DNA of 64,000 bases from Erysipelotrichaceae bacterium (GTDB taxonomy: Bacteria > Bacillota_I > Bacilli_A > Erysipelotrichales > Erysipelotrichaceae): assembly GCA_030525525.1 (NCBI GenBank), contig JAUNEN010000004.1:1-64000 (forward strand), written 5' to 3'. Of the stretch, positions 1,116 to 49,212 are shown in pieces. A program made the translations under genes and the position numbers. Numbering within the stretch: position 1 is the first letter of the stretch; each line of letters begins with the position of its first letter. A model generated the notes under the pieces. That model saw nothing but the letters and a program-made list of their open reading frames with translations, was not told the DNA's origin and did no database searches.

Positions 1116-4100
1116 TCATGATGACCGATTGCCGGAATCGTGACTCTCTTTGTCTGTGTTTCGAATACTGCATTTGTAAACGTTGCTGTATAAACACCGA
1201 TGCCGGTTGTTGTACATAATGCTTCTTTTTCAACACTGTAAACAGCTTTCACTGTTTCTGTGATTGTCGGTTCTCCTTCATCACTTTCCGCTGTTGCTGT
1301 GACTTCATAACCGTCAGCTGTTTCAGTCCATGTGTAAACTGGATCTTTGTATGAAGATGCTGTTCCGATGATCGTGAACTGACCTGCACCATTTTCACTG
1401 CGGATCACGATCATTCCGTCATCATACAGGAAGTTGTCTGATTCATAGTTGAAATCAGTGCCGTTTACTTTCTGTGTTACCTTCAGATTACGGACATTTG
1501 CATCTCCGAAGATTTCTGCTGTTGGAACAACTACATCCAGATCAGCGTAAGGAGTCAGTGTCTGTTCGGCGATTAGATCAGTTCCGTTTGAAGCACTGTC
1601 AGCTGTCTTTGCCATTGAAACAACTTTTACTTTCGGAGTTGCTGTGAAAACAAATCTGATATTGCCGAGAGCATCCTTTTCATATTCATCAATCGAAACA
1701 TCGAGCCGGCTCTGAACAACAGCCTTCTGGTTTGCATTGACACTCAGACTGTCAAGCCCGTTAATTTCAGCCGCATAGAAAGTCGTATCATACTGCATAC
1801 CGAAATCATATTCTTTGAATGCATTGACTATATCTGCAGGGATTGAACTGTCTGCGGTTGTTTTTGCACCGAGCCATGCCGCATCGATTACAGTCACTTT
1901 GATCTTTTTGCCGTTGATCAGTTCAACTTCGGCAGTTCCTGCTTTTGATGCTGTTGCATGAGCTGCGTTGTATGCAAAGATATCTGAACCGCCGTAGCCT
2001 GTCATAAATGCATTTTCAAACAAGCCTGTATCAGTGAGTCTCTTTGCCAGATCAATTCGGTTGACCGGTGCATACGGTGTGTATACTGTCTCTGTGTCGA
2101 CATAATATGATTCACCTTTCACGAAGAGATATTCCGTCGGATCTTTCCGATAATTGTAAATCGTTCCGTTAGTCGGATTGCGATGGCCGATGTACCAGCT
2201 GCCCTGCATGTCAGGGTATCCTTCTTTAACGGTAATCGTTGTCGAAGCAGTCACTTTTCCGTCTGAACTTGTTAATGTCAGAACACTTGTGCCTTTTTTA
2301 AGACCGGTGACCCAGATCGTTCCGGATGCAGAGGAATTGAAAGAAATATTCGTGTTATCAGCTGTTAATGTTACATTCGGATCTCCGTTGAACGGTTCCG
2401 TTGAATAGATCAATACGCTTGAATAGTCAACATAGGCCGTGGCTGTCGGTGCAATAGTGAAGGATGTCGCCGGGACTTGCGGTACAACCTTCACTGTACA
2501 TTCCGCATAGACTGATTCATTTTCTGCAGAATACGCTTTGATTGTTACCGTACCTTCCTTGTAGCCGTAAACATAACAGCTGTTATAAGAGTAATTGACT
2601 CTTGCAATCGATGAATCCGAAGATTCCCAATTCAGCTGAGCAAGAGATGCACTCTCGGGAGTCACATCTGCGAGGATTCTGATTTCTTTGCCGACAACTG
2701 CTGTGTACTCACTCTGTTCAAATGAGATGGAAGTCGGCTGATCGGCAACCGTGATAAAGAAATATGCAGCTGCTCCGGTTTTTCCTGTCACGCTGACCTG
2801 TGCTGTTCCGGCAGTGAGTGCTGTAACCTGCCCTGTTTCAGACAGACGGATGCAGTTGTCATCTGCATAATTGAGCTGCCATATGAATTCGTCATCAGAA
2901 TAGTCGCCGTTTCCGTACAGATTGTATTCGAGCTGTACAGAATCTCCGACTTTCAGGGTTCTGCGTCTTTCACCTTTCGGTTCAATGGAAGAAGCATAAT
3001 TGCCGACATGAATTCTTGTCTTTGCGACAAGATCTTCTTCTGCAGTTGCAGTGAGAATGGCTGTTCCAAGCGAAACACCGCGGATCATAGAGCCCTGAAC
3101 AGTCATGACACTCTCATTGCTGGATGAATACTCTGCATTCAGGCTCTGAGCTCCGGCCGGGTTGAAAATCAGCATACTATTGTTGATATACTTACTCGAG
3201 CCGACTGCCACGTAATAATTCATATCCGCGAATGCGATCTTTTTCGGTTCCGGAACAACACTGATGTAGTAGTTGGCATAAGAACCGTTTTTGATTGCTG
3301 CCTTTACCTGGGCATATCCAGTCTTAACAGCTTTAACCAGCCCCGTTGAATCAATCGTGATTGCACCATTCAGGTCCGATTCAATACTCCATGTAACAGA
3401 CTCATCTGCAAATTCTGTATTTTCCGGATAAAGCTGATATGCAAGCTGCTTTGATTCGCCAGGTGTCAGATAGATACTGTTCATTTCAATGTTGGAAATA
3501 CTTGCTGCAAAGTCTCCGACAACAAATTCAGCACTTGCACTGACTCCGTTTTCTGCAGTCACCGTGATTGTTGCGGTACCGTTGGATCTTCCGAAAAGCT
3601 GTTTATTATACACTTCAACAACTTCCGGATTGCTTGATGTGACAGTCAACTTAGCGCCATTAGCAGAAGATGGTTCATAAACAAGATATCTGTCGACGCT
3701 GTAGCTGTAATACTTATCCAGATAATTTGTTCTTTCCTTGAATAAGAGTGCTGCAGGATCCTGATATACATGGACCGAGAAATATGTGCTGGAACCATTT
3801 TTGATTGTTGCCCAGACTTCTGCATATCCTGTTTTGAGTCCGGTCACAACACCGTTTTCATCTACAGACAGAATGTCTGCACCCCTGTCCACTTTCCAAG
3901 TGATTTCTTCATCATCAAAGGTTTCACCATATGGATTCAGCTGATAAGTCAGCTGTTTGCTTTCACCGACTTTGACATATGTTTCATAGTCGCCTGAGCG
4001 GCTGATTGATGAAGCATAATCACCGACTGTGAATTCGGCACTTGCGCTGACTCCGTTTTCTGCTGAAACAGTGATTGTCGTGGTTCCTTTGTTGACGCCG

Positions 4101-5752
4101 TAAAGATACTCACCATCAATTCTGACAATGCTTTCATCACCGGAAGTCACATTCAGCGGATATCTGTACGCTCCTGACGGTTCATAATTAAGAAAATTCC
4201 AGAGATACTGCCCGTCGTTCTGACCGATATAGTTTGTATCTTTTCTGAATGAAAGAGATGTCGGTTCTTCATAAACAGTGATACTGTAATAAGCATTGCC
4301 GCCGTTTTTGATATAAGCTCTCACAGCACCGCTGCCGGTATTCAGTGCAGTCACTTCACCGGTTTCGCTCAATGAGAAGCTGTTGTTATCGGAATAATCA
4401 ATTTCCCATCTGATGACTTCATCTGAAGTGTCTCGATCTTCCGGATAAAGAATATATTCAAGTTGTTTGGTTTCTCCGACTTTCAGCCTGATATTTCCTT
4501 CTTTCGGATTGATTCCGTCCGCATAATTTCCGATCTCAAATGTTCCGGTTGCACTCAGTCCGTTTGTCGAAGTGACCGTAATTTCAGCGGTTCCTGCAGC
4601 GACACCGTAAAGATAACTGCCATCAACTTTGATGATGGATTCATCAGATGATTCAATTGTCAGTGCGCTGCCGTATGCTTCATCCGGTTCGTAATTCAGA
4701 TAATTCCAGATATGGTTTCCTCCGCCGATCGGCAGATAATTTGTTTCATTTCTGAATGAAAGAGAAGTCAGCGGTTCACTGATATAGATATACCAGCTTG
4801 CGGCGGATCCGTTGCTGATTTCCGCATATACATTTGTATATCCGGCAGAGATTGCAGTTATATTGCCTTCCTGATCCAGAGAAATACAATCAGGATTTCC
4901 TCCGTTGGTTGTCCATATGACAGTTTCATCAGAAAGATCACCATCCTCAGGATACAGCTTATATGTCAGCTGTACGGTCTGGCCGACTGTAAGATCCTGT
5001 TCATAATCTGATACCTGGGAAATACTGTCAGCGTAATTTCCGACTTTGACGAGTGTACTTGCAGTGATACCGTTTGATGATGTTGCTGTCAATGTTGCTT
5101 CACCGGCTGCTTTGGCATTAACATAGCTGCCGGAAACTTCGATCACAGATTCATCAGAAGAAGTGAATACAGTGTCTTCCAGAGCAAGATAAGGCTGAAT
5201 ATTCAGAAGACTCGGAATGTATTGTGAATAATTCAATCTCATGCCGTAACTGGCGCGCTTAAAAGACAATTCTTCTGCTCCTGTCGGTTCATAAACACTC
5301 AGCTTTGCTTCAAATGAACCGGTCTGTTCAGAATTGTACATCCTTGCCGCAAAATAATAAGTCACACCTGCTTCAAGCTGATATTTCACTCTGAAATTGC
5401 TGTTGCCTGCGCCGTCATCGTTAGAAGTGAGCTCATTGAAATTCTCATCATAAAGATAGCCGTAGGTGTCAAATTCATTGCTCATTGACACGAACATATA
5501 CATATTCGAAGTCTCTGGTACAAAATGGTAGTAGATCATGTTACCGCCGTTTTCAATGTTGACGGTGACAGTTTCATCAACCGAAATATCACGGATATCC
5601 TTTTCTTCATCAGCCGTCGGCTGAACGGTCAAAGGCTCTTTTTCATTGATTTCGGTTGGATCAGATTCTTCAGCATTCTCTGCAAATGTGACAAAGGAAT
5701 GCGGAATCATCATGAAAAATGAAATTAGTAAAACAAGTAATTTCTTTAGCAT
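104..5752 (-). CDS. Giant Ig-like repeat surface protein with SLH anchor
   Basis: Predicted secreted cell-wall protein of 1882 aa. The first ~25 residues (MLKKLLVLLISFF...) form a signal peptide. The bulk is about six repeats of a ~167-residue unit made of two bacterial Ig-like (BIG2-type) folds, recognisable by recurring 'SSDESIVxVDG', 'GTAxITVxxxNG' and 'LYPEDxDxSDExVxW' patterns. Near the C-terminus are repeats of the form YTWSxDxxxxTAxAxCxxCG, a further BIG2 domain and three SLH domains (FTDV...ITVG...FxPxxxCTREQxVTFLWR). SLH domains bind pyruvylated wall polysaccharide, so the protein is probably displayed as an adhesin or surface-layer component. The ATG at 5752 has a GGAGG-type site and an extended -10 upstream. 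The 3' kilobase is nearly identical to that of the next gene, so the anchor region was duplicated or converted recently. Confidence 0.9.
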   Translation of the reverse strand: MLKKLLVLLISFFMMIPHSFVTFAENAEESDPTEINEKEPLTVQPTADEEKDIRDISVDETVTVNIENGGNMIYYHFVPETSNMYMFVSMSNEFDTYGYLYDENFNELTSNDDGAGNSNFRVKYQLEAGVTYYFAARMYNSEQTGSFEAKLSVYEPTGAEELSFKRASYGMRLNYSQYIPSLLNIQPYLALEDTVFTSSDESVIEVSGSYVNAKAAGEATLTATSSNGITASTLVKVGNYADSISQVSDYEQDLTVGQTVQLTYKLYPEDGDLSDETVIWTTNGGNPDCISLDQEGNITAISAGYTNVYAEISNGSAASWYIYISEPLTSLSFRNETNYLPIGGGNHIWNYLNYEPDEAYGSALTIESSDESIIKVDGSYLYGVAAGTAEITVTSTNGLSATGTFEIGNYADGINPKEGNIRLKVGETKQLEYILYPEDRDTSDEVIRWEIDYSDNNSFSLSETGEVTALNTGSGAVRAYIKNGGNAYYSITVYEEPTSLSFRKDTNYIGQNDGQYLWNFLNYEPSGAYRYPLNVTSGDESIVRIDGEYLYGVNKGTTTITVSAENGVSASAEFTVGDYASSISRSGDYETYVKVGESKQLTYQLNPYGETFDDEEITWKVDRGADILSVDENGVVTGLKTGYAEVWATIKNGSSTYFSVHVYQDPAALLFKERTNYLDKYYSYSVDRYLVYEPSSANGAKLTVTSSNPEVVEVYNKQLFGRSNGTATITVTAENGVSASAEFVVGDFAASISNIEMNSIYLTPGESKQLAYQLYPENTEFADESVTWSIESDLNGAITIDSTGLVKAVKTGYAQVKAAIKNGSYANYYISVVPEPKKIAFADMNYYVAVGSSKYINNSMLIFNPAGAQSLNAEYSSSNESVMTVQGSMIRGVSLGTAILTATAEEDLVAKTRIHVGNYASSIEPKGERRRTLKVGDSVQLEYNLYGNGDYSDDEFIWQLNYADDNCIRLSETGQVTALTAGTAQVSVTGKTGAAAYFFITVADQPTSISFEQSEYTAVVGKEIRILADVTPESASLAQLNWESSDSSIARVNYSYNSCYVYGYKEGTVTIKAYSAENESVYAECTVKVVPQVPATSFTIAPTATAYVDYSSVLIYSTEPFNGDPNVTLTADNTNISFNSSASGTIWVTGLKKGTSVLTLTSSDGKVTASTTITVKEGYPDMQGSWYIGHRNPTNGTIYNYRKDPTEYLFVKGESYYVDTETVYTPYAPVNRIDLAKRLTDTGLFENAFMTGYGGSDIFAYNAAHATASKAGTAEVELINGKKIKVTVIDAAWLGAKTTADSSIPADIVNAFKEYDFGMQYDTTFYAAEINGLDSLSVNANQKAVVQSRLDVSIDEYEKDALGNIRFVFTATPKVKVVSMAKTADSASNGTDLIAEQTLTPYADLDVVVPTAEIFGDANVRNLKVTQKVNGTDFNYESDNFLYDDGMIVIRSENGAGQFTIIGTASSYKDPVYTWTETADGYEVTATAESDEGEPTITETVKAVYSVEKEALCTTTGIGVYTATFTNAVFETQTKRVTIPAIGHHEYGEPEYTWSRDNKTATAKAVCTVCGDEVTETVNTTYEVLEEPTLEEPGKGKYTAVFTNELFETQTKEVEIPSLSDKSAKDIVLDKNELTILFNASAKLNATVLPEDCEDKTVKWSSSDSSIVTVDANGNVKGVKPGKATVTAETVNGLTDTCEVRVLFTDVAVSSQYFFTPVYWAVDNGITVGAGGPGKFSPTASCTREQFVTFLWRLNGEPEPKSSSNFSDVNRSDWYYKPITWAAENGITVGLNDGTGRFGVGQACTREQCVTFLHRSVGSPEPAGTMEFTDSQAGRYYYKAIKWAAGKGITVGLNDGTGRFGVGQKCTRGMLVTFLYRFDQSK

Positions 5753-5912: not shown

Positions 5913-6924
5913 TTATTTTGACTGATCAAATCTGTAGAGGAAGGTTACAAGCATGCCTCTGGTGCACTTCTGGCCGACACCGAATCTGCCTGTTCCGTCG
6001 TTCAGACCGACTGTGATTCCCTTGCCTGCTGCCCACTTGATCGCTTTGTAGTAGTATCTGCCTGCCTGGCTGTCGGTGAATTCCATTGTGCCTGCAGGTT
6101 CCGGACTGCCTACTGATCTGTGCAGGAATGTGACGCACTGTTCACGTGTACATGCCTGACCGACACCGAACCTGCCAGTTCCGTCATTCAGACCGACTGT
6201 GATTCCGTTCTCAGCTGCCCATGTGATCGGCTTGTAATACCAGTCGCTTCTATTCACATCTGAGAAGTTGCTTGAGCTCTTCGGCTCAGGTTCACCGTTC
6301 AGTCTCCATAAGAAGGTGACAAACTGTTCTCTTGTACAGCTTGCTGTCGGTGAGAACTTACCCGGTCCGCCTGCTCCGACGGTAATGCCGTTATCGACTG
6401 CCCAGTAGACAGGTGTGAAGAAGTACTGTGAGCTGACTGCTACGTCGGTGAAGAGAACTCTGACTTCACATGTGTCTGTCAGTCCGTTGACTGTTTCTGC
6501 TGTTACTGTTGCCTTACCGGGTTTGACACCCTTGACATTGCCGTTTGCATCAACTGTAACGATACTTGAATCGCTGCTTGACCATTTCACTGTCTTGTCT
6601 TCGCAGTCTTCCGGAAGGACTGTTGCATTCAGTTTTGCGGAAGCGTTGAAGAGGATTGTCAGTTCATTCTTGTCAAGGACGATATCCTTTGCGCTCTTAT
6701 CGGAAAGTGAAGGAATCTCTACTTCCTTGGTCTGTGTTTCAAACAGTTCGTTTGTAAAGACTGCTGTGTACTTTCCTTTTCCGGGCTCTTCAAGAGTCGG
6801 TTCTTCGAGCACTTCATAAGTTGTGTTGACTGTTTCTGTGACTTCGTCGCCACACACTGTGCAGACTGCCTTGGCTGTTGCTGTCTTGTTGTCTCTGGAC
6901 CATGTGTATTCAGGTTCACCGTAT
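5913..6924. repeat. 1-kb direct repeat, copy B
   Basis: Partner of 104-1115. It encodes the shared SLH anchor of the 2925-aa protein. The near-absence of even synonymous differences contrasts with the clearly diverged repeats just upstream, which points to recent gene conversion or duplication. Confidence 0.92.
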
Positions 6925-9900
6925 ACATGTCCTCTGGCTTCAATTTCAACATCCTTGGTCTGTGTTTCGAACAGCTCGTTTGTGAAGTGTGCTGTGTATC
7001 TGCCGATACCCTTTTCTTCACATCCGGGTTCCTTGATCACTTCATAGGTCGTTTCGACTGTTTCAGTGATCTGTCTGTCGCAATCCGTGCACTTGGAAAC
7101 TGCGGTGACTGTGCTGTTATCTTCAGACCATGTATATTCAGGAGTTCCGTATGTATGGCCCTTGGCCGGCAGCACGACATCCTTGGTCTGTGTTTCAAAC
7201 AGCTCATTTGTGAATGTTGCGGTATATCTTGCGCTTCCGTCTTCATCTGCGGTAGCTTCCTGGATGACTTCATAGACTGTTTCGACTGTTTCAGTCAGTT
7301 CTTCGCCGCAGACTGTGCAGACTGCTTTTGCGGTAACTGTCTTGAAGTCGCTTGCCCATGTATAAGTCGGAGTTCCGTATTCATGATGGCCGATCGCAGG
7401 AATTGAAACCTTCTTTGTCTGTGTTTCAAATACAGGGTTGGTGAAGACTGCGGTATAGACGCCGACGCCTTCTGTCATGCATTCCGGTTCTTTTTCAACA
7501 CTGTAGACTGCTGTGACTGTTTCGGTGAGGGTCGGATCAGCTTCATCCACGCTTTCGGAAACTGCTGTGACGTCATAGCCGTTTTCTGTCTTTGTCCATG
7601 TGTAGACAGGATCTTTATATCCTGATACAACACCGGTGATTGTGAATGTTCCGTATCCGTTAGTGCTGTAGAAGTAGAGAGTCTGTTCGTCATACAGTGC
7701 ATCATAGGTATATTCTTTGCCGTTGGATGCCTTATGTGTGACGGTGAGGCTGCGGATGTAATCATCTCCGAAGACACTTGCCATCGGCAGGACAAACTGC
7801 ATGCGCTCATAGCCGTTCAGTTTTGTTTCTGCAATCAGTGCTGTACCGTCGGATGTATTGGCTGCTGTCTTGGCCAGGGCAACGACTTTTGCCTTTGCGT
7901 CGGCTGTCAGCTTGAATGTGATATTTCCGAAGGCATCCTTCTCATAGCTGTCGATCTTGACATCGAGCCATGACTGAACAACTGCCTTCTGGTTTGCATT
8001 GACGCTGAGACTGTCAAGTCCGTCAAGCTCTGCAGCATAGAATGTGCTGTCATACTGCACACCGAGATCGCTTTCTTTGAATGCATTCACGATGTCTGCA
8101 GGAATTGAGCTGTCAGCTGTTACCTTTGTGCCAAGCCATGCAGAATCAATAACTGTGACTTTAACCGGATGTCCCGGAAGCAGTTCAATTTCAGTTGTTC
8201 CTGCCTTTGCGGCTTTTGCATATGTGCCATATAGTGCCGAATATTCACTGCTGCCGATACCCCACGGTACAACATCTTCAAACAGGCCGCATTCAATTAA
8301 ACTCTTGATGAATGAAGTCTCTTCAACAGAGGAATATGCAGTGTAATCAATCGCATATTCGAAGTCATATCCTTCACCGGCAACCAGAACATATTCCTCA
8401 CTGCTCTGATCCGCTACACGGTAATAGCCTCTGTCAGTTGTATTCAGATGGAAGATATCCCATGACCCTTCAATCTCAGGAATTCCTTCGACAACGTTAA
8501 CATTAACTTTGGCAGTCTGCTTCTCATTTTCAGATGTAATTGTGATAACGCTCGTACCGGCTTTGAGGCCTGTGATGCGCAGTGCACCTCTTCCGGAGGA
8601 CTGAAGGATGCTGATATTGTCATTATTGACTTCAGCATAGTAGTACTGGTTAGCTTTCTCCGGCTGCATTCTGATGGAAATGGCATTCGTATATCCGACA
8701 TAAGCGGTTACATTGCTTGAAACAGTAATTGAAGTCGGATCCACCGGATTATAGCCGTTGATCTTGCATTCTGCATAAACCTTGTCATCAAGCTTGGAGA
8801 CTGCTCTGATTGTGGCTGTTCCTTCCTTGAGAACACTGATATATGCATAGTTGTCATATGAGCTGTTGATTTCTGCAACAGACGGATCTGAAGATTCCCA
8901 GACAACGCCGGCTCTGTATGCTGTAGAAGGAGTCGAAGTCAGTCTAATGGATTGCGTCATACCTACTTCAGTGTTGTACTCGGATGCTGTGAATTTAAAT
9001 TCTGTCGGTTTTTCATAGACGTAGATAATAAATCCTGTCGAAACACCCGACTTGGAGGTTACACTTACCTGCGCCTCGCCGGATTCTACAGCTGTTACAA
9101 GACCTGTTTCACTGAGGCGGATACAATTATTCGGTGAATAGGTGATATTCCATGTGAATTCATCATCGGAGCAGTCGTCATTGCCGGTCGCAATGAATTC
9201 AAGCTGCAGTGTATCACCCTTCAGAATTTTCTTTTCAGCACCGTCTTTTGCCTGAATGGATACAGCATAATTGCCGATATGATATCTTGCCTTTGTGGAA
9301 AGACCGTCATCGGCTGTCACTGTAATGATGGATGTGCCTGCAGCTTTACCATAGATCAGCTCACTGTCCACGGTTGCGGCATTTTCATTTGAACTAGCCA
9401 GTTCAATACCGAAGCTTCTGGAAGTTGTCGGATTGACATACAGGTCAGCCCAGACATTTCTCTGACCTCCGATCCCGAGATAATAGTCAAGCTGACCGAA
9501 TGAAATCTTCTTGGGATCCGGCGATACATTAATATAGAATGTTACATAATTGCCGTTTTTAATGGTTGCGCGTACGTAAGCATAGCCTGTTTTAAGAGCT
9601 GTTACTTTGCCGGTTTCATCCAGTCTGATGCATCCGGCAAGGTCGTTTTCAACACTCCAGACAACTTCTTCTTCCGTGAAATCTCCGCCTGTCGGGTTGA
9701 GTACATATTCAAGCTGAGTTTCATCGCCTGCCAGCATGTTGATACCGCTGTAGTTTGCCGTACTGATACTGCCTGCATAATTGCCGACCGTAAATGTCGC
9801 ACTGGCACTCAGACCGTTTTCTGTTTCAACAGTGACTGTCGCGGTTCCGCTGTTGCGTCCGTAAATATTGTTGCCGCTGACGTAGACAACATTCTGATCA

Positions 9901-12900
9901 CTGGATGTGATGGTAATCGGACAGCTGCGCGCTGATTCCGGTCCGACAGTCAGATAATTCCAGATGTTTTTGCTGTTGTACTTATCAAGGAAATATGCGC
10001 TTTCATTGAACTTGATTGACTTCGGCTCGTCCACAACTCTTACATAATAAGTGGTGTAGTTGCCGTTCTTTATGGTTGCTCTGATATTCACTGAGCCGAT
10101 TCTCTTTGCTGTGACAACACCGTTCTGATCAACTGAAGCGATACCGGAAGTACCATTGCCCATCACTGACCATGTTACTTCTTCTTCACTGAAGTCATAA
10201 CCTTCAGGCTGAAGTGTGTATTCAAGCTGTTTTGTTTCGCCTTTCTTAAGATAAATATCGGAGCTGTCGGCATGAGTGATGTCACCGGCATAATTCCCGA
10301 CCGTGAATTCAGCTGTTGTGCTGAGTCCGTTTTCTGTTGTAACAGTCAATGTTACTGTTCCGTCATAACCGCCGTACAGCCAATTACCGTCAACTCTGAC
10401 AATGCTTTCATCGCTCGATGTGATACTTAACGGATATCCGTATGCATACTGTGATGTGTAATCCAGATAGCTCCAGATTTCATGACTGTAGTGTTTATCA
10501 AGATAATTTGTTTCATTTTTGAAGGAAAGAGTCTGCGGATCTTCATACACGATGATGTAGAAGGATGTAGATCTTCCGTTCATGATTGTTGCTCTGACTC
10601 TTGCTCTGCCGCCTGCGACAGCTGTAATCAGACCATTTTCATCTAATGTAATGCAGTTGTTGTTTGCATATTCAAGAGACCATGTGACAACTTCATCGGA
10701 TGTATCTGCACCTGAAAGTGTATATTCAAGCTGCTTAGTATCGCCAACCCCGATATAGATATCATCATAATCAACTTTTCCGATGGAGGTTGCATAGTAA
10801 CCTGTTTCGAATGTTCCTTTTGCGGTTACACCGTTATCTGCAACAACAGTAATTTCAGCAGTTCCCTTGGCAACACCGTAAACAGCTGTTCCGTCAACTC
10901 TGACGATGCTCTCATCATTTGATGTGATTGTCAGAGGATATCTGTATGCAAGATTGGGCTGGTAGTTCAGATAATTCCAGATATCGTTGCTTGTATTGAC
11001 ACCGACATGGCTGATTTCATCCCTGAACGCAAGAGTAACGGGTTCAGCATAAACAGTAATCGAATAGTTGACCGAATAACCGCTCTTTGTCGTCACGGTA
11101 ACTGTTGCATTTCCTGCTGCGAGTGCTGTCACCAGTCCGTTCTCATCGACTGAAACGAATCCGCTGCCGCTTGTGACAGACCATGTAACTTCTTCATCAG
11201 AGAAATCGCCGCTTCTCGGATAGAGATAATATGACAATTGTCTTGTATCTCCGGCTTTGAGATAAATTCTGCTGTAATCATTTGTGCCGATGCTTGTTGC
11301 ATAATTGCCGACTTCAAATGTCGCTTTTGTTGTAACTCCATTATCGGCTGTTACAGTGATTTCAGCAGTTCCTTTGGCTTCAGGATAGATATATGTATCT
11401 TCAACTCTGATCACTTCTTCATTGCTTGAAGTAACAGTCACAGGATACTTATATGCATAATCCGGGACATAATTCAGATAGTTCCAGATGTCACTGGAAT
11501 TGGATATCCTGACATAATTCATTGATTTTCTGAATGTCAATGATGCAGGTTCAACATACACACGGACATAGTATGTAACGGAATCACCATTTCTGATTTC
11601 AGCTCTGACGTTTGCAGTACCGCCTGAAAGTGCTGTCACAGTTCCGTCTTCGCTGACTGTGACGGTCTTTGTGCCTGATGTTACTGTCCATGTGACGACT
11701 TCATCGGAAAGATCCGCTTCAGTCGGATAAAGTGTATACTCAAGTTTCTTTGTATCACCGATGCCGAGGTAAATATCGTCGTAGTTATTTCTGCTGATGC
11801 TTGACGCATAATTTCCGACTTCAAAAGTTCCTGTTGCAGTGATGCCGTTATCACTTGAAACAGTAATTTCAGCTGTACCTTTTGAAATACCGTAAAGATA
11901 ATTTCCTTCAACTTTGATGACTTCCTCATTGCTGGATGTGATTGTCAGAGGATAGCCGCTCGCATTGTTCGGTGTGTAATTCAGGAAATCCCAGATATAT
12001 CTGTTATAGTTAACGCCAAGATAGCTGACTTCTTTCTTGAAAGTCAGAGATGTGGGATCTGTATAGACATGGATATAGTATGACTGGGTATAACCGCTGA
12101 GTGTCTCAGCAGTGACATATCCATAACCGCCTGAAAGTGCAGTGACAAGTCCGTCTTCTGTCACAGAAATACAGCTGTTTTCACCATCTAAATAGAATGT
12201 CACTTTATCATCGGATGTGTCTCCGTTTGAAGGATACAGCACATAATCCAGCTGCTTTGTTTCTCCGACCTTGAGATTGATATCACCCCAGGTATTTCGG
12301 GTGATACCTGTCGCATAATTACCGACAGTGAATGCAGCTGTTGCAGTAATTCCGTCATTGGCTGTTACAGTAATTTCTGCCGTTCCTGCCGCGACACCAT
12401 AAACATAGTTTCCGTCAACTCTGGCAACTTCTTCATTACTTGATATAATCGTCAGAGGATAGCCATATGCATTATCCGGCTCATAATCCAGAATATCCCA
12501 GATATATTGACTGTAATCAGGTCTCAGATAATAGTTTTCTTTACTGAATGACAGGGATGTCACATCTTCATAGACTCTGATACTCCATGTCTGATATCCG
12601 CCGCTCAGAATTGTTGCTCTGACTCTGCCGGTTCCTGCCGCAAGAGCAGTAATTGTTCCGTCTTCAGCAATGCTGATGTAATCGGAACCCGAGTCAATTG
12701 ACCATGTAACTACTTCATCAGAAGCGTCTTCGGGATACAATGTGTATTCAGGTTTGAATGTTTCCCCGATCTTCATCCCGATCGTATTCCAGTCAGTTTT
12801 TGAAATACTTGTTGCGTAATTGCCGATATTGAATGTTGCGGTTGCACTGAGTTCTTTACCGTCTGATACAGTAACAGTTGCAGTACCTGCCGCATCGCCG

Positions 12901-14690
12901 TATACATAATTGCCGCTGATTCTGACGATTTCTTCATTGCTGGATGTAATTGTCAGAGGATAGCCGTTTGCATTGGACGGTTCATAATTCAGCAGATTCC
13001 AGATATATGTGCTGTTGCCGGTTCTGAGATAATTTGCTTCTTTCTTAAATGACAGTGATGTCAGATCTTCATAAACTCTGACACTCCATGTCTGATAACC
13101 GCCACTCAGAATTGTTGCTCTGACAGTTGCTGATCCCGCCGCAAGCGCAGTGATCGTACCGTCTTCAGCTACACTGATGTAATCAGAGCCGGAATCAACT
13201 GACCATGTCACAACTTCATCAGTCGCATCAGTCGGATAGAGAGTATATTCAGGCTTGAATGTACCGCCGATTGAAAGGTTAATTGTATTCCAATCAGTTT
13301 TTGAAATACCTGATGCATAATTGCCGATATTGAATGTTGCGGTTGCACTCAGCTCTTTACCGTCTGATACAGTAACAGTTGCAGTACCTGCCGCATCGCC
13401 ATATACATAATTGCCGCTGATTCTGACAATTTCTTCATTGCTGGATGTAATTGTCAGAGGATATCCGCTTGCATTGGACGGTTCATAATTCAGGAGATTC
13501 CAGATATTGGTATTATTACCGGTTCTGAGATAATTCTCTTCTTTTTTAAATGACAGCGATGTCAGATCTTCATAAACCCTGATACTCCATGAAACATAAC
13601 TGCCGCTCATGATTGTCGCACGCACAGATGCAGTGCCTGCCGCAAGAGCAGTGACCGTTCCGTCTTCGGCAATACTGATGTAATCAGATCCGGAATCAAT
13701 TGACCATGTGACAACTTCATCCGTTGCATCAGTCGGATACAGAGTATATTCAGGCTTGTACGTCTGACCGATCGTCAAAGCAACTGTGTTGTAATTGCTC
13801 TTGGAAATGCTTGAAGCATAATTACCGACAAGAAGTTCAGTGGATGCACTGATCCCATTATCAGCTGTCGCTGTGATTGTAGCTGTTCCTGCCGCAACAC
13901 CGCGTATACTGGTTCCGCTGACAGCCGCAATCTCTTCATTGCTTGATGTAACAGTAATCTCTGATTCTGCATTTGACGGTGTCTTTGTCAGATAATTGGT
14001 ATAGTACCAGTAGTTTCCGGGGCGGACCGCATAACGCTCCGCTCCGAATGCAAGTTCGGTTACCTGAATTGGTTCATAAACTGACAGTGTTGCTTCAAAT
14101 GAGCCGGTATTCCCTGAGCTGTAAAGTCTTGCCCCGTAATAATATGTAACACCGGTTTCCATCTTATAGACCAGTTTGAACTGACTGTTGCCTGCACTGT
14201 CATCATCAGTTTTGAGCTGATTGAAATCAGCATCATACAGAGTACAGTATGTATCAATTGTTCCGCTGGACTGGAATACATAATGCCCTGCTGTTTCCGG
14301 AGTGAATTCATAATAAATCATCTTTCCGGCAGTGTCGATGTCAACCGTTACGGTTTCATCGACTGTGATCGGACGGATGTCTTTATCTTCATCAGCCATC
14401 GGATCAGCAACAGGAGGAAGTTCTTCCTTTGCTTCCGCGACCGGTTCAGAAGGAATCTCTTCTTCGACCGGCTCTTCCTCAGGAATTATTTCCTCTTCTG
14501 TTTGTTCAGGAGTGATTTCCTCTTCCTCAGCCGTTTCAGCTTCAGCAGGGATTTCTTCTTCTGTTTCTTCGATGATTTCCATCGATTCTTCTGCTTCTTC
14601 AGTCACCGGAATCTCTTCCGCATAGGCTGTTAAGCTCTGAGGAATCATAAGGAAAAATGATAGCAAGAAAACAAATAGTTTCTTTAGCAT
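5913..14690 (-). CDS. Giant Ig-like repeat surface protein with SLH anchor (2925 aa)
   Basis: Paralogue of the downstream 1882-aa protein. It has a signal peptide (MLKKLFVFLLSFFLMIP), then a Glu/Pro-rich linker of ~70 residues, then at least ten ~167-residue double Ig-like units. After these come several CxxCG repeats (YTWSxDxxTVTAVSKCTDC and relatives), a BIG2 domain and three SLH domains. It has more repeat units and more CxxCG repeats (four against two) than its neighbour. The acidic, proline-rich stretch just after the signal peptide is absent from the shorter protein. The role is inferred to be surface adhesion or structure, with SLH domains holding it to the wall. The ATG at 14690 has an AAGGGGG-type site and an extended -10 promoter about 34 bases upstream. 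An ordinary single-protein call is safe, but repeat number in an assembly of such DNA may be unreliable. Confidence 0.9.
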   Translation of the reverse strand: MLKKLFVFLLSFFLMIPQSLTAYAEEIPVTEEAEESMEIIEETEEEIPAEAETAEEEEITPEQTEEEIIPEEEPVEEEIPSEPVAEAKEELPPVADPMADEDKDIRPITVDETVTVDIDTAGKMIYYEFTPETAGHYVFQSSGTIDTYCTLYDADFNQLKTDDDSAGNSQFKLVYKMETGVTYYYGARLYSSGNTGSFEATLSVYEPIQVTELAFGAERYAVRPGNYWYYTNYLTKTPSNAESEITVTSSNEEIAAVSGTSIRGVAAGTATITATADNGISASTELLVGNYASSISKSNYNTVALTIGQTYKPEYTLYPTDATDEVVTWSIDSGSDYISIAEDGTVTALAAGTASVRATIMSGSYVSWSIRVYEDLTSLSFKKEENYLRTGNNTNIWNLLNYEPSNASGYPLTITSSNEEIVRISGNYVYGDAAGTATVTVSDGKELSATATFNIGNYASGISKTDWNTINLSIGGTFKPEYTLYPTDATDEVVTWSVDSGSDYISVAEDGTITALAAGSATVRATILSGGYQTWSVRVYEDLTSLSFKKEANYLRTGNSTYIWNLLNYEPSNANGYPLTITSSNEEIVRISGNYVYGDAAGTATVTVSDGKELSATATFNIGNYATSISKTDWNTIGMKIGETFKPEYTLYPEDASDEVVTWSIDSGSDYISIAEDGTITALAAGTGRVRATILSGGYQTWSIRVYEDVTSLSFSKENYYLRPDYSQYIWDILDYEPDNAYGYPLTIISSNEEVARVDGNYVYGVAAGTAEITVTANDGITATAAFTVGNYATGITRNTWGDINLKVGETKQLDYVLYPSNGDTSDDKVTFYLDGENSCISVTEDGLVTALSGGYGYVTAETLSGYTQSYYIHVYTDPTSLTFKKEVSYLGVNYNRYIWDFLNYTPNNASGYPLTITSSNEEVIKVEGNYLYGISKGTAEITVSSDNGITATGTFEVGNYASSISRNNYDDIYLGIGDTKKLEYTLYPTEADLSDEVVTWTVTSGTKTVTVSEDGTVTALSGGTANVRAEIRNGDSVTYYVRVYVEPASLTFRKSMNYVRISNSSDIWNYLNYVPDYAYKYPVTVTSSNEEVIRVEDTYIYPEAKGTAEITVTADNGVTTKATFEVGNYATSIGTNDYSRIYLKAGDTRQLSYYLYPRSGDFSDEEVTWSVTSGSGFVSVDENGLVTALAAGNATVTVTTKSGYSVNYSITVYAEPVTLAFRDEISHVGVNTSNDIWNYLNYQPNLAYRYPLTITSNDESIVRVDGTAVYGVAKGTAEITVVADNGVTAKGTFETGYYATSIGKVDYDDIYIGVGDTKQLEYTLSGADTSDEVVTWSLEYANNNCITLDENGLITAVAGGRARVRATIMNGRSTSFYIIVYEDPQTLSFKNETNYLDKHYSHEIWSYLDYTSQYAYGYPLSITSSDESIVRVDGNWLYGGYDGTVTLTVTTENGLSTTAEFTVGNYAGDITHADSSDIYLKKGETKQLEYTLQPEGYDFSEEEVTWSVMGNGTSGIASVDQNGVVTAKRIGSVNIRATIKNGNYTTYYVRVVDEPKSIKFNESAYFLDKYNSKNIWNYLTVGPESARSCPITITSSDQNVVYVSGNNIYGRNSGTATVTVETENGLSASATFTVGNYAGSISTANYSGINMLAGDETQLEYVLNPTGGDFTEEEVVWSVENDLAGCIRLDETGKVTALKTGYAYVRATIKNGNYVTFYINVSPDPKKISFGQLDYYLGIGGQRNVWADLYVNPTTSRSFGIELASSNENAATVDSELIYGKAAGTSIITVTADDGLSTKARYHIGNYAVSIQAKDGAEKKILKGDTLQLEFIATGNDDCSDDEFTWNITYSPNNCIRLSETGLVTAVESGEAQVSVTSKSGVSTGFIIYVYEKPTEFKFTASEYNTEVGMTQSIRLTSTPSTAYRAGVVWESSDPSVAEINSSYDNYAYISVLKEGTATIRAVSKLDDKVYAECKINGYNPVDPTSITVSSNVTAYVGYTNAISIRMQPEKANQYYYAEVNNDNISILQSSGRGALRITGLKAGTSVITITSENEKQTAKVNVNVVEGIPEIEGSWDIFHLNTTDRGYYRVADQSSEEYVLVAGEGYDFEYAIDYTAYSSVEETSFIKSLIECGLFEDVVPWGIGSSEYSALYGTYAKAAKAGTTEIELLPGHPVKVTVIDSAWLGTKVTADSSIPADIVNAFKESDLGVQYDSTFYAAELDGLDSLSVNANQKAVVQSWLDVKIDSYEKDAFGNITFKLTADAKAKVVALAKTAANTSDGTALIAETKLNGYERMQFVLPMASVFGDDYIRSLTVTHKASNGKEYTYDALYDEQTLYFYSTNGYGTFTITGVVSGYKDPVYTWTKTENGYDVTAVSESVDEADPTLTETVTAVYSVEKEPECMTEGVGVYTAVFTNPVFETQTKKVSIPAIGHHEYGTPTYTWASDFKTVTAKAVCTVCGEELTETVETVYEVIQEATADEDGSARYTATFTNELFETQTKDVVLPAKGHTYGTPEYTWSEDNSTVTAVSKCTDCDRQITETVETTYEVIKEPGCEEKGIGRYTAHFTNELFETQTKDVEIEARGHVYGEPEYTWSRDNKTATAKAVCTVCGDEVTETVNTTYEVLEEPTLEEPGKGKYTAVFTNELFETQTKEVEIPSLSDKSAKDIVLDKNELTILFNASAKLNATVLPEDCEDKTVKWSSSDSSIVTVDANGNVKGVKPGKATVTAETVNGLTDTCEVRVLFTDVAVSSQYFFTPVYWAVDNGITVGAGGPGKFSPTASCTREQFVTFLWRLNGEPEPKSSSNFSDVNRSDWYYKPITWAAENGITVGLNDGTGRFGVGQACTREQCVTFLHRSVGSPEPAGTMEFTDSQAGRYYYKAIKWAAGKGITVGLNDGTGRFGVGQKCTRGMLVTFLYRFDQSK
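12330..13830. repeat. Tandem 501-bp coding repeats
   Basis: Successive Ig-like units in this part of the 2925-aa gene are nearly identical in DNA. The same stretch, starting at the codons for 'NVAVALS' near 12831, recurs near 13332, exactly 501 bases later (167 codons). Units further from this zone are more diverged, so these copies are the most recently amplified. Confidence 0.8.
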
Positions 14691-44757: not shown

Positions 44758-45300
44758 TTATGATACAAACCCTACAAAGATCCTGATCGGTACATCACCC
44801 AGCGAGCCTTCCAGCTCAGCTTCCATTCTCTTTGCAATTTCTCTGAGTGCTGCCTCTTTCGCAATTTCATGATTGTAATCAATAATGTTTCCATCATTGT
44901 CATATTCACAGGATGTTCTGATTTCTATCACAAGTGAATCAATTGTTACGAAATCCGGCTTTGTAAAAACCTTGTCTGAATAATAAGTCAGCACTTGCTT
45001 ATCCTCAGGTTTATTAATTGGAAACTTCGAAATAGTATCCGCAAATGTTCTGACTGCAATCTCTGTAACTCGCTCATCATTCTCTTCTGCATTTTCAATG
45101 ATTTCCCGGTCATCCGGGCTCAATCTTTCAGCATGAATTTCATTCATAATGCAGAAATATTTCAGAGGTGCTGTCACTTTTTCAGATTCAGCAGGAATGA
45201 ATTTCATTTCATTTTCTGCCAATTCATGATCATATTGTTCTAATCCAAGCTGTTCGATCAGATATTTGATTACTTCTTTTTCATACACAGAATTATTCAT
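44758..45300 (-). CDS. Candidate immunity protein of the cysteine-peptidase effector
   Basis: A ~180-aa cytoplasmic protein without signal peptide, membrane helix or recognisable domain; acidic overall (NDERVTEIAVRTF, KPDFVTIDSLVIEIRT). It starts 14 bases after the stop of the papain-like protein. I use the ATG at 45300, 10 bases after AGGAGG; a GTG at 45303 is equally well placed. Small orphan genes directly downstream of T7SS effectors commonly encode their antidotes, so immunity is inferred from position only. It could instead be an unrelated housekeeping protein. Confidence 0.45.
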   Translation of the reverse strand: MNNSVYEKEVIKYLIEQLGLEQYDHELAENEMKFIPAESEKVTAPLKYFCIMNEIHAERLSPDDREIIENAEENDERVTEIAVRTFADTISKFPINKPEDKQVLTYYSDKVFTKPDFVTIDSLVIEIRTSCEYDNDGNIIDYNHEIAKEAALREIAKRMEAELEGSLGDVPIRIFVGFVS

Positions 45301-45314
45301 CACGGACAAACCTC

Positions 45315-46247
45315 CTAGTTATATGACACCTGGGTGAAATCAATAAAGCCATCATATACTGATAAATCCGGAGACAGGTAATATGTGTCACCCCATGAAG
45401 ATACAATCAATCGACCATCATCAGTAACTCCTGTTACTGTCATTCCATGTCCGGCATTCGGATTATTGCGGACCATTCTTCCTTCAGCATCGTAAAGAAT
45501 TACCGGTCTTATACCTACTACTATTTCACCGTTTCTACGAAGTTCATTAAAATTCTCTGCTGTCACCTGGACGGGAGTCGCAGTAACATCGATATTATGA
45601 TCTCGACAGTACGCTTCAAACATCTCTCCATGCTCTGCCAGTGATGCTCCGCTTTCATTTGGATTATCATATGCACAATAGTAATCAGTAACGAGAGCAT
45701 CGTAGTTCAAATCACCGTTCACATACATCGGAAATCCAAATATTCTTTCGAATTCATCTTCTCTTCCTTTAAATCTCAGAAAGAGAGTATTAATCATAGC
45801 GACGTAACCGCAGCCTTCACTGTTCATCGTTTCCAGGAATTTTCTTATTTCTTTGTTTGACATATTAGGATAATAACGTCTGACAATTTCTACAACTGCT
45901 TCCCAGTTTTTTCGAGGGCTACCTTGATCACCTCCATATTGACCTTCATCATCGAATGCCGGGTTGGAGAGTTCTCCCTCAAACTGAAGAATATGATTCT
46001 CTGCATACATGTATTTTGTGGCAATGTCGTTTAAAGCTGTGCCGTTATTGCAAAGTTTTCTTGATTCCGCAAGCAGCTCATAATTCTTCAGAAGCAAATG
46101 TGCCTTAATCAAAAGCATCGATACTCCGAACAGACGTGATCTTGCACTTGATAATTCAAATCGAAGATTATTGATCCGACGGCTCATATTGCGGAATTCT
46201 GAGCCGTAATTCATCAGAACATCTGTTCTTACATCAAATTCGTTCAT
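45315..46247 (-). CDS. Probable T7SS effector with papain-like cysteine peptidase domain
   Basis: A 310-aa protein. The N-terminal ~100 residues are helical and lack a signal peptide, as expected of LXG/WXG-type substrates. Residues ~110-305 form a papain/C39-like peptidase: Cys146 in NSEGCGYVA, His267 in NAGHGMTVTGV, and SSWGD at 283-287, where the usual NSWG asparagine is replaced by Ser, leaving Asp287 or another residue to complete the site. Its start overlaps the stop of the upstream WXG100 gene by four bases (ATGA), which ties it to the secretion substrates. Likely targets are cell-wall peptides or proteins of competing bacteria; this is an inference. Confidence 0.7.
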   Translation of the reverse strand: MNEFDVRTDVLMNYGSEFRNMSRRINNLRFELSSARSRLFGVSMLLIKAHLLLKNYELLAESRKLCNNGTALNDIATKYMYAENHILQFEGELSNPAFDDEGQYGGDQGSPRKNWEAVVEIVRRYYPNMSNKEIRKFLETMNSEGCGYVAMINTLFLRFKGREDEFERIFGFPMYVNGDLNYDALVTDYYCAYDNPNESGASLAEHGEMFEAYCRDHNIDVTATPVQVTAENFNELRRNGEIVVGIRPVILYDAEGRMVRNNPNAGHGMTVTGVTDDGRLIVSSWGDTYYLSPDLSVYDGFIDFTQVSYN

Positions 46248-46564
46248 GAGCCATATCTCCTTTCTGAAGCAATTGTGAGTGCGTTCATCTCAGCGTTGTA
46301 GAGATTCTGCGCAATTTTTGTGATTGATGCGGCTGTTTTCTGAAGGCTGATTGCCGTCTTGGAAATATCATTTCTTGTATCTGTAGTTTTTGCCAGGTAC
46401 GTTGATGCATTTTCACCGGTCCAGTTCTGGTTAATCGCCTGAATAGCATCAGTCATATCTCTGTTTGAGAGTCTTGCCAGTTCAGCAGCGATTTTTTCAA
46501 TTTCCTGTGCCTGCCGGATTGAATTTGTATATTTAAACTCAATTATTGTTTGAACTATTGACAT
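46244..46564 (-). CDS. WXG100-type protein
   Basis: A 106-aa helical hairpin protein with the WxG turn at NQNWTGENAST (near residue 50). WXG100 proteins are T7SS substrates or chaperone-like partners and form four-helix bundles with each other or with larger toxins. Because it directly precedes the cysteine peptidase, with a four-base overlap, it is the best candidate for that effector's secretion partner. RBS AAGGAGG. Confidence 0.8.
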   Translation of the reverse strand: MSIVQTIIEFKYTNSIRQAQEIEKIAAELARLSNRDMTDAIQAINQNWTGENASTYLAKTTDTRNDISKTAISLQKTAASITKIAQNLYNAEMNALTIASERRYGS

Positions 46565-46575
46565 ACCGGACCTCC

Positions 46576-46887
46576 TTAGATGATGACTTCAGAAGACAAG
46601 CCTTCTGAAATACTTGTGTTTGCTGATTCTGCCTGTTCGTACACACCTGCCATCTGAAGAAGATCTTTCGGATATTCGTTCAGACGCTTGAACAGTTCTT
46701 CAATTCTGTCCTTTTTGCTCTGATATTCATTTCTCTCTTTGTCACCGGCTTCACCGATCCAGTAATTGGAAGTTCTGTTGACGATTGCTTCCAGACTGTC
46801 AAACTGTGCACGCATTTCAGCTGTCCGGCCTTGAAGAGAAGATGCCTTGGCGGTGAGTACTTCTGTTTTCACTTTGATCTTTGACAT
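46576..46887 (-). CDS. WXG100-type protein
   Basis: A 103-aa protein with turn motif NYWIGEAGD and a long second helix ending in LSSEVII. The tail SEVII closely resembles the NEVII tail of the WXG100 protein at 48898-49212. RBS AAGGAGGAAG. It is the middle gene of three WXG100-type genes in a row. Confidence 0.8.
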   Translation of the reverse strand: MSKIKVKTEVLTAKASSLQGRTAEMRAQFDSLEAIVNRTSNYWIGEAGDKERNEYQSKKDRIEELFKRLNEYPKDLLQMAGVYEQAESANTSISEGLSSEVII

Positions 46888-46899
46888 GCTTCTTCCTCC

Positions 46900-47199
46900 T
46901 TATCTCAGATGCTGGATCAGATTGCTGACATCCTGCTCTGCTTTGTTGTATTCCTTCTTAGCGTATTCCAGTTCTTCACGGTAATTTCTGAGCCAGAGGA
47001 TTGTATTCTTTACATATTCATAATCCTTTGCAAACTGAAGAACCAGAACTGCGTGAGCCGTACCTTCCCACATCGTGTGCAGCTGTTCGACATCTTCATA
47101 TACGGCATTACTGACGGAATTCAACCTCTCAATTAAGTCGTTGATTTCATTTGTGTCTCTCTCCAGGACACTTGTATTGATTGCAATTCTTTGTCCCAT
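46900..47199 (-). CDS. WXG100-type protein
   Basis: A 99-aa protein with HTMWEGTAHAVLVLQF at the turn between two long helices, then a heptad-rich C-terminal helix. First of the three-gene WXG100 set that leads into the peptidase effector. About 120 bases separate it from the radical SAM gene upstream, so it may have its own promoter. Confidence 0.8.
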   Translation of the reverse strand: MGQRIAINTSVLERDTNEINDLIERLNSVSNAVYEDVEQLHTMWEGTAHAVLVLQFAKDYEYVKNTILWLRNYREELEYAKKEYNKAEQDVSNLIQHLR

Positions 47200-47316: not shown

Positions 47317-48396
47317 TTAATCAAAGAGTATTCCCTTCATACAGACCATCGGCTTGTCTGCATCATAATCCCAGCTGTGTCTGGCATCTCCCCGGCAGAA
47401 GCGCTTGTGAGCACATTCTTTACAGGTTTGATTTGTTTCACTGATATCTCTTCTGAATATTTCAAAACGGTTATTCCAGACATCTGAAAAACGTGATTCG
47501 TAAATGTTCCCCTGAATTGTTTCAGGTCTGCGTTCAATATCCAGACATGCGCCGATATCCCCGTTTGCCATAATACTGGCAGTATAGACACCTGCATTGC
47601 ATAACCAGTACCAGTCACGTATCTCCGCTTCATAATCCAGTCCGAGGTAATGGCTGCAGCCGAATTCAAGAGGATATCCTTCATTTCGCTTCTGCCTGAT
47701 GAAATCAAACAGATATACATATTCATCTTTACTCAGCATCAGATCCGGCCTTAACAAAGCACGGCCGATCGGTTCAAGATGAATCACTCTCCATGAATCA
47801 ATATCAATTCCCTTCATGATTTCAAAAAGGTCATCAAGTTCTTTGATATTTTCATGATTCACAACAGTTGTGATCTGAACAGATTGAAAAGCATGTTCAT
47901 CAATCAGATTCTGTATTCCCTGCATTGCCCGACGATATCCACCCGGTAAACCGCGATAGCGATCATGCGTTTCTTCCAGGCCGTCTATGGAAACAGATAT
48001 TGTTTTCATTCCGCACAAAGCAAGTTTATGAGCGATTTCAGGAGTGATCAGAGTCGCATTGCTGGTCATTCCCCATGCATATCCAAGCTCATTTGCGTAT
48101 GACATGATTTCAAAAAAATCATGCCTGAGCAGCGGTTCACCGCCGGTGATGCAAAGCATCATTTTCCGGATATCAAAATCTTCTTTGACTTCATCGAGAA
48201 TCCGTTTGTAATCATCTGCACTCATCTCATTTTCTGCTGTGTAATCACAGCTGCTGCCGCAATGAAAGCAATGTTCGTTGCAGCGCAGTGTCAATTCCAG
48301 AAATAGATGACGAAGCTCTGGTGATTGATACGGTTTAAATGTATATTGAGACAGATCCTGAAGATGTTTTTTCTTGATCTCTTTAATCTGATTCAT
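47317..48396 (-). CDS. Radical SAM/SPASM enzyme
   Basis: A 359-aa radical SAM protein. The Fe-S motif CNEHCFHC (Cys39, 43 and 46) lies at the start of a TIM-barrel core (TGGEPLLR, SVSIDGLEETHDRYRG). The C-terminus is a SPASM domain with several Cys (WLCNAG, GACLD, TCKECAHKRFCRG, MVCMKG) that hold auxiliary clusters. SPASM enzymes mostly modify peptides (RiPP maturases, sactisynthases, cyclophane-forming enzymes, quinohaemoprotein maturases). The start overlaps the stop of the repeat lipoprotein gene by four bases (ATGA), so the two are co-translated and the lipoprotein is the obvious substrate. No peptide-recognition domain (RRE) is evident at the N-terminus. Confidence 0.88.
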   Translation of the reverse strand: MNQIKEIKKKHLQDLSQYTFKPYQSPELRHLFLELTLRCNEHCFHCGSSCDYTAENEMSADDYKRILDEVKEDFDIRKMMLCITGGEPLLRHDFFEIMSYANELGYAWGMTSNATLITPEIAHKLALCGMKTISVSIDGLEETHDRYRGLPGGYRRAMQGIQNLIDEHAFQSVQITTVVNHENIKELDDLFEIMKGIDIDSWRVIHLEPIGRALLRPDLMLSKDEYVYLFDFIRQKRNEGYPLEFGCSHYLGLDYEAEIRDWYWLCNAGVYTASIMANGDIGACLDIERRPETIQGNIYESRFSDVWNNRFEIFRRDISETNQTCKECAHKRFCRGDARHSWDYDADKPMVCMKGILFD

Positions 48397-48710
48397 GGCT
48401 GTGCATTCTCTCCGTTTTCACCATTAGAATTATTTGGCGCAACAGGAGGCGGACCATATACAGCCGTATTGGTGTTCGATGCCGGTTCGTAATCACCTGA
48501 TTCTGTCTCTGTTTGATTCTGTTCGTTATCCTCACCACTGGTTTCTGCAGGAGCAGGTCCATATACTCCAGCATTTTGATTATCTGCCGGCTCATATGAC
48601 GGATCCGGAGTTTCTGTATTCTGCTGATCATTGACAGCTGCACATCCTGTCAGCATAATCCCGGCAAGAATTCCGGCTGCCGTATTCTTTTTGATCGTCA
48701 GTTTTTTCAT
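48393..48710 (-). CDS. Small lipoprotein with VYGPxP repeats (candidate RiPP-like substrate)
   Basis: A 105-aa lipoprotein. The signal peptide ends in lipobox LTGC (Cys23). The mature part is Asn/Glu/Pro-rich, with two copies of a 16-residue motif, YEPADNQNAGVYGPAP (39-54) and YEPASNTNTAVYGPPP (74-89), 35 residues apart. I chose the ATG at 48710 because AAGGAG precedes it by a good distance; the longer frame upstream lacks a site. Its translational coupling with a SPASM radical SAM enzyme makes it a likely substrate, with the repeated Tyr or Pro as modification sites. I do not recognise the family with certainty. Confidence 0.75.
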   Translation of the reverse strand: MKKLTIKKNTAAGILAGIMLTGCAAVNDQQNTETPDPSYEPADNQNAGVYGPAPAETSGEDNEQNQTETESGDYEPASNTNTAVYGPPPVAPNNSNGENGENAQP

Positions 48711-48744: not shown

Positions 48745-48790
48745 AACCTCAAAAAAGATACAGATCTCTTTCTGTATATTTTTTGAGGTT
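48745..48790 (-). terminator. 46-base near-perfect inverted repeat
   Basis: AACCTCAAAAAA at 48745-48756 pairs with TTTTTTGAGGTT at 48779-48790, enclosing an inner ATACAGA/TTCTGTAT stem. The A/T tracts make it work as a terminator in either direction. It separates the WXG100 genes upstream from the lipoprotein/radical SAM operon, which starts 35 bases further on. Confidence 0.65.
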
Positions 48791-48897: not shown

Positions 48898-49212
48898 TCA
48901 GATGATAACTTCGTTGGATAATCCGGCAGCGATCTCTGCATTTTCCTGCTCTGCTCTTGCATAGCCGGCTGCCATTTCCTGAAGGTCTCTGCTATGTTCC
49001 TGGACCATTCTGAACATTCTCTGCATGTCAGGTTCGAGACCCTTGAACTTTGTGATGAATGCGTTGGACGCTTCACCCTGCCATGTGGATGTCATTGAGC
49101 CGACAACCTCGAGCATCTGGTTTGTCAATGTGTTGAGCTGTGTGCCTTCGTCGCTGAATTCCTGTGCTGTCCGGTTTAATACTTCCGGTGAAACTTTAAT
49201 CATGCCTTCCAT
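48898..49212 (-). CDS. WXG100 protein
   Basis: A 104-aa helical hairpin with STWQGEASNAF at the turn, and a C-terminal helix ending NEVII. It is a classical WXG100/ESAT-6-like size. An RBS of AAGGAG is seven bases before the ATG at 49212. With the next upstream gene it probably forms the main EsxA-like pair of this system; the strong stem-loop after it fits a highly expressed, separately processed transcript. Confidence 0.88.
   Translation of the reverse strand: MEGMIKVSPEVLNRTAQEFSDEGTQLNTLTNQMLEVVGSMTSTWQGEASNAFITKFKGLEPDMQRMFRMVQEHSRDLQEMAAGYARAEQENAEIAAGLSNEVII

Follow-up and report, generated by a model that had tools for sequence, protein, structure and literature searches.

The gene pair and its surroundings

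The window, which is the whole stretch of 64,000 nucleotides analyzed here, contains on its minus strand a gene for a small lipoprotein followed directly by a gene for a radical SAM/SPASM enzyme. The features of this gene pair are as follows.

47317 to 48396, minus strand: radical SAM/SPASM enzyme of 359 amino acids, TIGR04133-like according to Pfam and NCBIfam matches
47341 to 47658, minus strand: SPASM/auxiliary-cluster region of the enzyme with C247, C266, C284, C325, C328, C334, H340 and C352, located from alignments
48259 to 48282, minus strand: CxxxCxxC for the SAM-binding 4Fe-4S cluster (C39, C43, C46), invariant
48393 to 48710, minus strand: lipoprotein of 105 amino acids, the presumed substrate (stop codon included in the coordinates), with an ATG start, the lipobox LTGC and Cys23
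48444 to 48491, minus strand: repeat 2, YEPASNTNTAVYGPPP, amino acids 74 to 89, with the motif VYGPPP at 48444 to 48461
48549 to 48596, minus strand: repeat 1, YEPADNQNAGVYGPAP, amino acids 39 to 54, with the motif VYGPAP at 48549 to 48566
48642 to 48710, minus strand: signal peptide of the lipoprotein through Cys23, including TAAGILAG, a conserved clade-specific motif and a candidate for recognition by the enzyme
48745 to 48790, no strand assigned: strong hairpin between a WXG100 gene and the lipoprotein gene, with 20-nt arms that are 95% complementary and an A/T-tract stem

The lipoprotein begins with MKKLTIKKNTAAGILAGIMLTGC at the ATG at 48710, and AGAAAGGAG precedes this start codon. The TGA stop codon of the lipoprotein and the ATG of the enzyme share four nucleotides at 48393–48396, and the pair is flanked by WXG100 genes at 46900–47199 on the downstream side and at 48898–49212 on the upstream side. 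Both the overlap and the position between WXG100 genes had been reported in the earlier note and are confirmed here, and the lipoprotein of 105 amino acids with its LTGC lipobox and two 16-residue repeats is present as described there. No NCBIfam or Pfam family matched the lipoprotein above its cut-off.

The hairpin at 48745–48790 is very stable, with a z value of −6.5 for the region, and it is located 35 nt from the lipoprotein ATG on the upstream side. Because it lies so near this ATG, there is no room for a promoter on its 3' side. The hairpin is a candidate regulatory element of transcription, whether as a terminator or as an attenuator.

A second pair exists in the same genome on contig C89 (L116, G000:C89:20000-28179), where the enzyme is 71% identical to that of the window and the lipoprotein directly upstream carries three motifs. 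This paralogous pair is convergent to a gene for an HtrA/DegP-like serine protease. In the window, the minus-strand region 44758–47199 holds three WXG100-like genes together with genes for a 310-aa and a 181-aa protein, and this order is kept in the congener G234 beside ssb-rpsR. The 310-aa protein recalls a C39/papain-like peptidase (Cys...GHGMTV...SWG) and has no Pfam match; the block is a candidate T7SS effector-immunity cassette.

Association of the enzyme with motif-bearing proteins

The pairing was analyzed in 80 relatives of the enzyme from gut and rumen genomes of Erysipelotrichaceae, Lachnospiraceae, Oscillospiraceae and Coriobacteriia, 79 of which, belonging to Bacillota and Actinomycetota, were informative. 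In 70 of the 79 relatives, the same-strand open reading frame just upstream carries one to seven [VLI]YGPP motifs. The motif occurs 252 times in these upstream frames, compared with one copy in 6,778 background frames (699,078 amino acids), and the two genes overlap or are at most 40 nt apart in 41 of the 49 parsed non-redundant pairs. Within the order (316 genomes), the lipoprotein model matches 15 of the 21 genomes that bear the enzyme and 0 of the 295 genomes that lack it, a co-occurrence of 3e-21 under independent genomes, although the genomes are not independent and come mostly from one genus. A lipoprotein match without the enzyme was not found in the 392 genomes of the phylum either. 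These results are the opposite of the wide occurrence without a radical SAM enzyme that the earlier note had named as the sign of an incidental pairing. The motif enrichment and the co-occurrence of the genes rule out a chance pairing and support the claim made there, so that a dedicated enzyme–substrate pair is very well supported.

Eight enzymes have no adjacent motif-bearing frame, and the genomes of seven of them match the lipoprotein model elsewhere. Six of these seven matches are strong, representing clear VYGPP lipoproteins with five or six motifs, sometimes two of them, and no enzyme is located within 1.5 kb of these distant lipoproteins. The presence of motif lipoproteins elsewhere in genomes whose enzyme has no adjacent substrate indicates that the enzyme is capable of acting in trans and of using several proteins as substrates.

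The motif statistics come from 229 YG sites in a set of 69 distinct lipoproteins and yield the consensus N-x5-V-Y-G-P-P-E-D-F. In 0 of 209 cases is the Tyr in front of GPP replaced, Gly is never replaced, and no [VILM]xGPP with x other than Tyr was found in the 69 lipoproteins. The position ahead of Tyr, in contrast, accepts several residues (V>L>E, A, D, I, M). Since synonymous codons differ at all five motif positions, selection acts on the amino acids. Mature chains are short, with a median of 82 aa, and they are variable apart from their one to seven motifs. This pattern agrees with the proposal of a lipid-anchored, multi-copy substrate in the earlier note, and of the two target residues suggested there, Tyr or Pro, it supports Tyr as the likely one. 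The enzyme very probably modifies the X-Y-G-P motifs. YGxP alone is not diagnostic, because a giant surface-type protein of the window (5913–14690, minus strand) contains YG[TEY]P within its internal repeats, which are probably MBG-like domains.

The motif is also located in proteins of other architectures. A lipoprotein with YG motifs beside the enzyme in L088 (about 4070–4981) has an M15 D-Ala-D-Ala carboxypeptidase domain fused to it, and a further domain is present in the lipoproteins of L144/L145 and also in L009. Early-branching enzymes of the clade (44–46% identical) adjoin motif proteins without a signal peptide, each with one motif. Thus, the substrate is defined by the motif and not by the lipid.

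In G234 (L181, G234:C48:4700-9000), three tandem zinc ribbons with ACIYGPEP, DCIYGPLP and SCIYGPPP lie upstream of a radical SAM enzyme of 353 aa, the start of whose gene is overlapped by the last zinc-ribbon gene; this module appears to be a cytosolic counterpart of the one with the lipoprotein. In G255 (L129, G255:C86:4200-10200), a zinc ribbon with STIYGPAP lies 9 bp behind a radical SAM gene; a single in-frame TGA interrupts this enzyme gene, which is possibly defective. In G503, a 157-aa protein with QVLYGPPK is located beside the enzyme. A zinc-ribbon search in the family, on a sampled set that held no positive control, found none. A scan of viral contigs with the Parabacteroides enzyme yielded no relative, and the family alignment contains one close relative from a viral contig (L118).

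The signal peptides of the paired lipoproteins have sequence features of their own. T[AS][AS]x[IV] or G[LMF]AAxT[LI] is present in 41 of the 69 paired lipoproteins. Among 21 other signal peptides of lipoprotein-like type, either motif is present in 2, and one of these belongs to the L088 protein, in fact a paired lipoprotein that the filter had missed. The motifs are clade-specific and lie where the hydrophobic core begins, with TA[AS]xI in Erysipelotrichaceae-like and GLAAxTLF in Lachnospiraceae sequences. The in-trans lipoproteins of genomes with a Lachnospiraceae-type enzyme have GLAA[ST]TLF in common. As far as such sequence conservation can suggest, the signal peptide may double as a recognition leader for the enzyme.

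Enzyme family, candidate chemistry and alternatives

In Pfam, the enzyme is assigned to Radical_SAM PF04055 (2e-21) and SPASM PF13186 (4e-8), and it has the CxxxCxxC and the SPASM Cys ligands of the radical SAM/SPASM superfamily, minus the Cys of Cx3C. Its best NCBIfam family is TIGR04133 (rSAM_w_lipo) with 278.6 bits, where the runner-up scores 158 bits. This value is below the curated cut-off of 425 for TIGR04133, and the score of 117 bits for TIGR04103, which we take to correspond to IPR026482, is below the cut-off of 725; membership by score was rejected in both cases. The CxxxCxxC shows no variation in 55 relatives, nor in all 29 rows of a second alignment. In the alignments, C247 and H340 are conserved without exception in the window family and shared with TIGR04133, but are absent from TIGR04103 and MftC. 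The fourth Cys of the SPASM Cx2Cx5Cx3C is replaced by Ala, Ser or Gly in the window family. The AlphaFold model of the enzyme (pLDDT 92.9) has SuiB, BlsE, CteB, SkfB and PqqE as its nearest folds, and ahead of the barrel it has a helix only. Neither an RRE partner or PlpY-like gene nor a conserved third gene was found in any related locus, and the small gene beside the Nostoc enzyme, taken as the PlpY counterpart, has no match among the related loci.

In trees with few taxa sampled from other SPASM families, the window family and TIGR04133 form one clade with support of 100/99. This clade joins TIGR04103 and the GDL enzymes with support of 97/91 in the first tree and 100/97 in the second, and MftC and NirJ fall outside the grouping. 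Enzymes of the TIGR04103 type, represented by PlpX, remove tyramine from X-Tyr-Gly (PMC11002830; PMC10533398), and the LYGLPI tag of PMC10533398 has this motif with a Pro after it. The Nif11 precursor at the Nostoc TIGR04103 locus ends in ALYGLPPELF. Because of the kinship with TIGR04103 and the X-Y-G motif in its precursor, splicease-like chemistry is preferred here. From these sequence relationships, we consider it about evenly balanced whether the chemistry is tyramine excision, in the sense that the enzyme would work like a splicease, and not that it is one.

The proposed mechanism, of which we infer the order of events, is as follows. The lipoprotein precursor would be made in the cytoplasm and recognized there by the enzyme, plausibly via the conserved signal peptide. 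The enzyme would then modify Tyr-Gly in every X-Tyr-Gly-Pro-[Pro/Ala] motif by excising tyramine, which would leave alpha-keto-beta-amino residues. Sec export and lipidation at Cys23 would follow, and the outcome would be a flexible, acidic, membrane-tethered chain displaying several modified sites. Taken as a whole, this reading of a motif-directed modifying module with tyramine excision and surface display has slightly better than an even chance of being correct. Spliceotides have been reported as protease inhibitors (PMC11117315). By analogy, a surface array of electrophilic ketoamides could serve as a reversible trap for serine or cysteine proteases or as a covalent handle; such a protease trap in the gut or rumen is the weakest step and seems unlikely.

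The same X-Y-G-P motifs could instead be modified by other radical chemistry, i.e. a Tyr-Pro or Tyr-X crosslink by a C-C or ether bond as in triceptides, epimerization or cleavage of the Tyr side chain. The fold-related SPASM enzymes SuiB, CteB and SkfB make crosslinks and thioethers, and Y-G-P can be read as an aromatic-x-x triceptide motif. The different SPASM ligand set, with C247 and H340 present and one Cys missing, suggests an active site unlike that of PlpX, so the chemistry may differ from that of TIGR04103. However, the closest relatives in the sampled trees act on or adjoin X-Y-G peptides, and the residue after Gly varies by family, being P here, S, T or M in TIGR04134 and L in Nostoc. 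This variation of the third residue places the triceptide reading lower, and because X varies whereas Y-G is retained together with a Pro no more than two residues away, splicing at X-Y-G is a better fit than crosslinking to the third residue. Other radical chemistry is a serious possibility that nevertheless falls clearly short of being probable.

The other alternatives concern the role of the pair. VYGPP might be a structural or binding repeat, where the enzyme acts on something else and is paired for co-regulation only. Such repeats on a lipoprotein could bind a partner, and some of the lipoproteins contain folded domains (M15 in L088, the extra domain in L144/L145). However, the proteins beside the enzyme clade have unrelated architectures, namely zinc ribbons, the TIGR04134 beta-sandwich and M15, whose sole constant is X-Y-G-x-P, and this explanation is improbable. 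A classical RiPP, in which the lipoprotein is cleaved to liberate a core peptide as a natural product, would agree with a small precursor with repeated cores beside a SPASM maturase. It is still less credible, because a protease, an exporter and an RRE are not conserved around the pair, the Sec/lipobox route is built in, and the motif is also found in zinc-ribbon proteins of the cytosol and in lipoproteins that have folded domains.

A role of the lipoprotein as a modified component or effector of the T7SS, which the earlier note had drawn from its place between WXG100 genes, was rejected as hardly conceivable: a strong hairpin separates the WXG100 gene from the lipoprotein, no T7SS gene was found in the flanks of related loci (up to 5 kb, where the positive control in the window worked) or in 8 kb around the C89 paralogous pair, and in G234 the WXG100 block stands beside ssb and rpsR (named from reading the sequence) without the pair, which is on another contig. 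Of the recurrence of VYGPxP lipoproteins beside SPASM enzymes and T7SS genes that the earlier note proposed to check, the former holds (70/79) and the latter does not hold in these flanks, and the placement in the window has most likely arisen by accident in this genome.

If tyramine excision at the motifs is correct, surface lipoproteins of gut and rumen bacteria would carry arrays of backbone-edited electrophilic sites, a related enzyme would edit cytosolic zinc-ribbon proteins, and post-translational backbone editing would be a part of ordinary cell biology, not of natural-product chemistry. It would also account for which residues matter (X-Y-G), and a two-gene, partner-free enzyme may suit protein labeling with short tags better than PlpXY. 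The more general proposal that the enzyme family edits full-size cellular proteins, i.e. lipoprotein arrays and cytosolic zinc ribbons, and not released natural products, with alpha-keto-beta-amino acids in a motif-directed manner, RRE-free and with the signal peptide as the leader, is tentative and a little less than probable.

Comparison with known systems

MftC is a SPASM enzyme acting on a Val-Tyr unit, and the mycofactocin precursor has the C-terminus GVY. It differs from the window system in that it uses only a C-terminal Tyr, works with MftB and is located farther off in the tree. The GDL-motif maturases (TIGR03913, DUF1843) resemble the system more closely, since their enzyme is near TIGR04103 and the neighboring peptide has PYGPAM; their peptides, however, are small and cytosolic and carry the GDL motif.

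The spliceases (PlpX, TIGR04103) share X-Tyr-Gly in the substrate, often followed by Pro (LYGLPP in Nostoc), and their spliceotide product is an alpha-keto-beta-amino acid with the loss of C8H9NO. The window system differs in having no RRE partner, although PlpX was studied together with one (PlpY), and a lipoprotein signal peptide is present in place of a Nif11 or nitrile-hydratase-like leader. In addition, the substrates of the window family are lipoproteins or cytosolic proteins, and the Cys/His set of the auxiliary cluster is another one. Scott et al. 2022 (Chem 8:2659) reportedly describe a wide use of spliceases, or ribosomal beta-amino acids, in peptides and proteins, and this work may already cover part of the present finding. 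Among the papers searched for the TIGR names or VYGPP, none names this motif.

The earlier note had regarded lipid-anchored substrates of such enzymes as unusual. This statement needs correction, because NCBIfam already lists, as a curated prediction, an rSAM/lipoprotein system (TIGR04133/TIGR04134) in which a radical SAM enzyme is paired with a lipoprotein. Plasmid records of Parabacteroides, Phocaeicola and Treponema supplied three TIGR04133 loci for comparison, whose TIGR04134 lipoproteins have CEYGSP, CEYGTP and CYGMP directly at the lipid Cys or a short distance behind it. In the lipoprotein of Treponema saccharophilum pTS1 (L093:3086-3475), the predicted lipid Cys is itself the residue X of X-Y-G (CYGMP), and lipidation would be affected if X is rebuilt. 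The TIGR04134 model has no match in the window lipoprotein, nor in the genome of the window. If tyramine excision holds, TIGR04133/TIGR04134, labeled a hypothetical equivalog in NCBIfam, would gain a concrete substrate and mass shift. This system, from Bacteroidota and Spirochaetota, has in common with the window pair the adjacent SPASM enzyme and lipoprotein, C247/H340 and X-Y-G-x-P, whereas the window lipoprotein, instead of a beta-sandwich, has repeated motifs in a disordered acidic chain.
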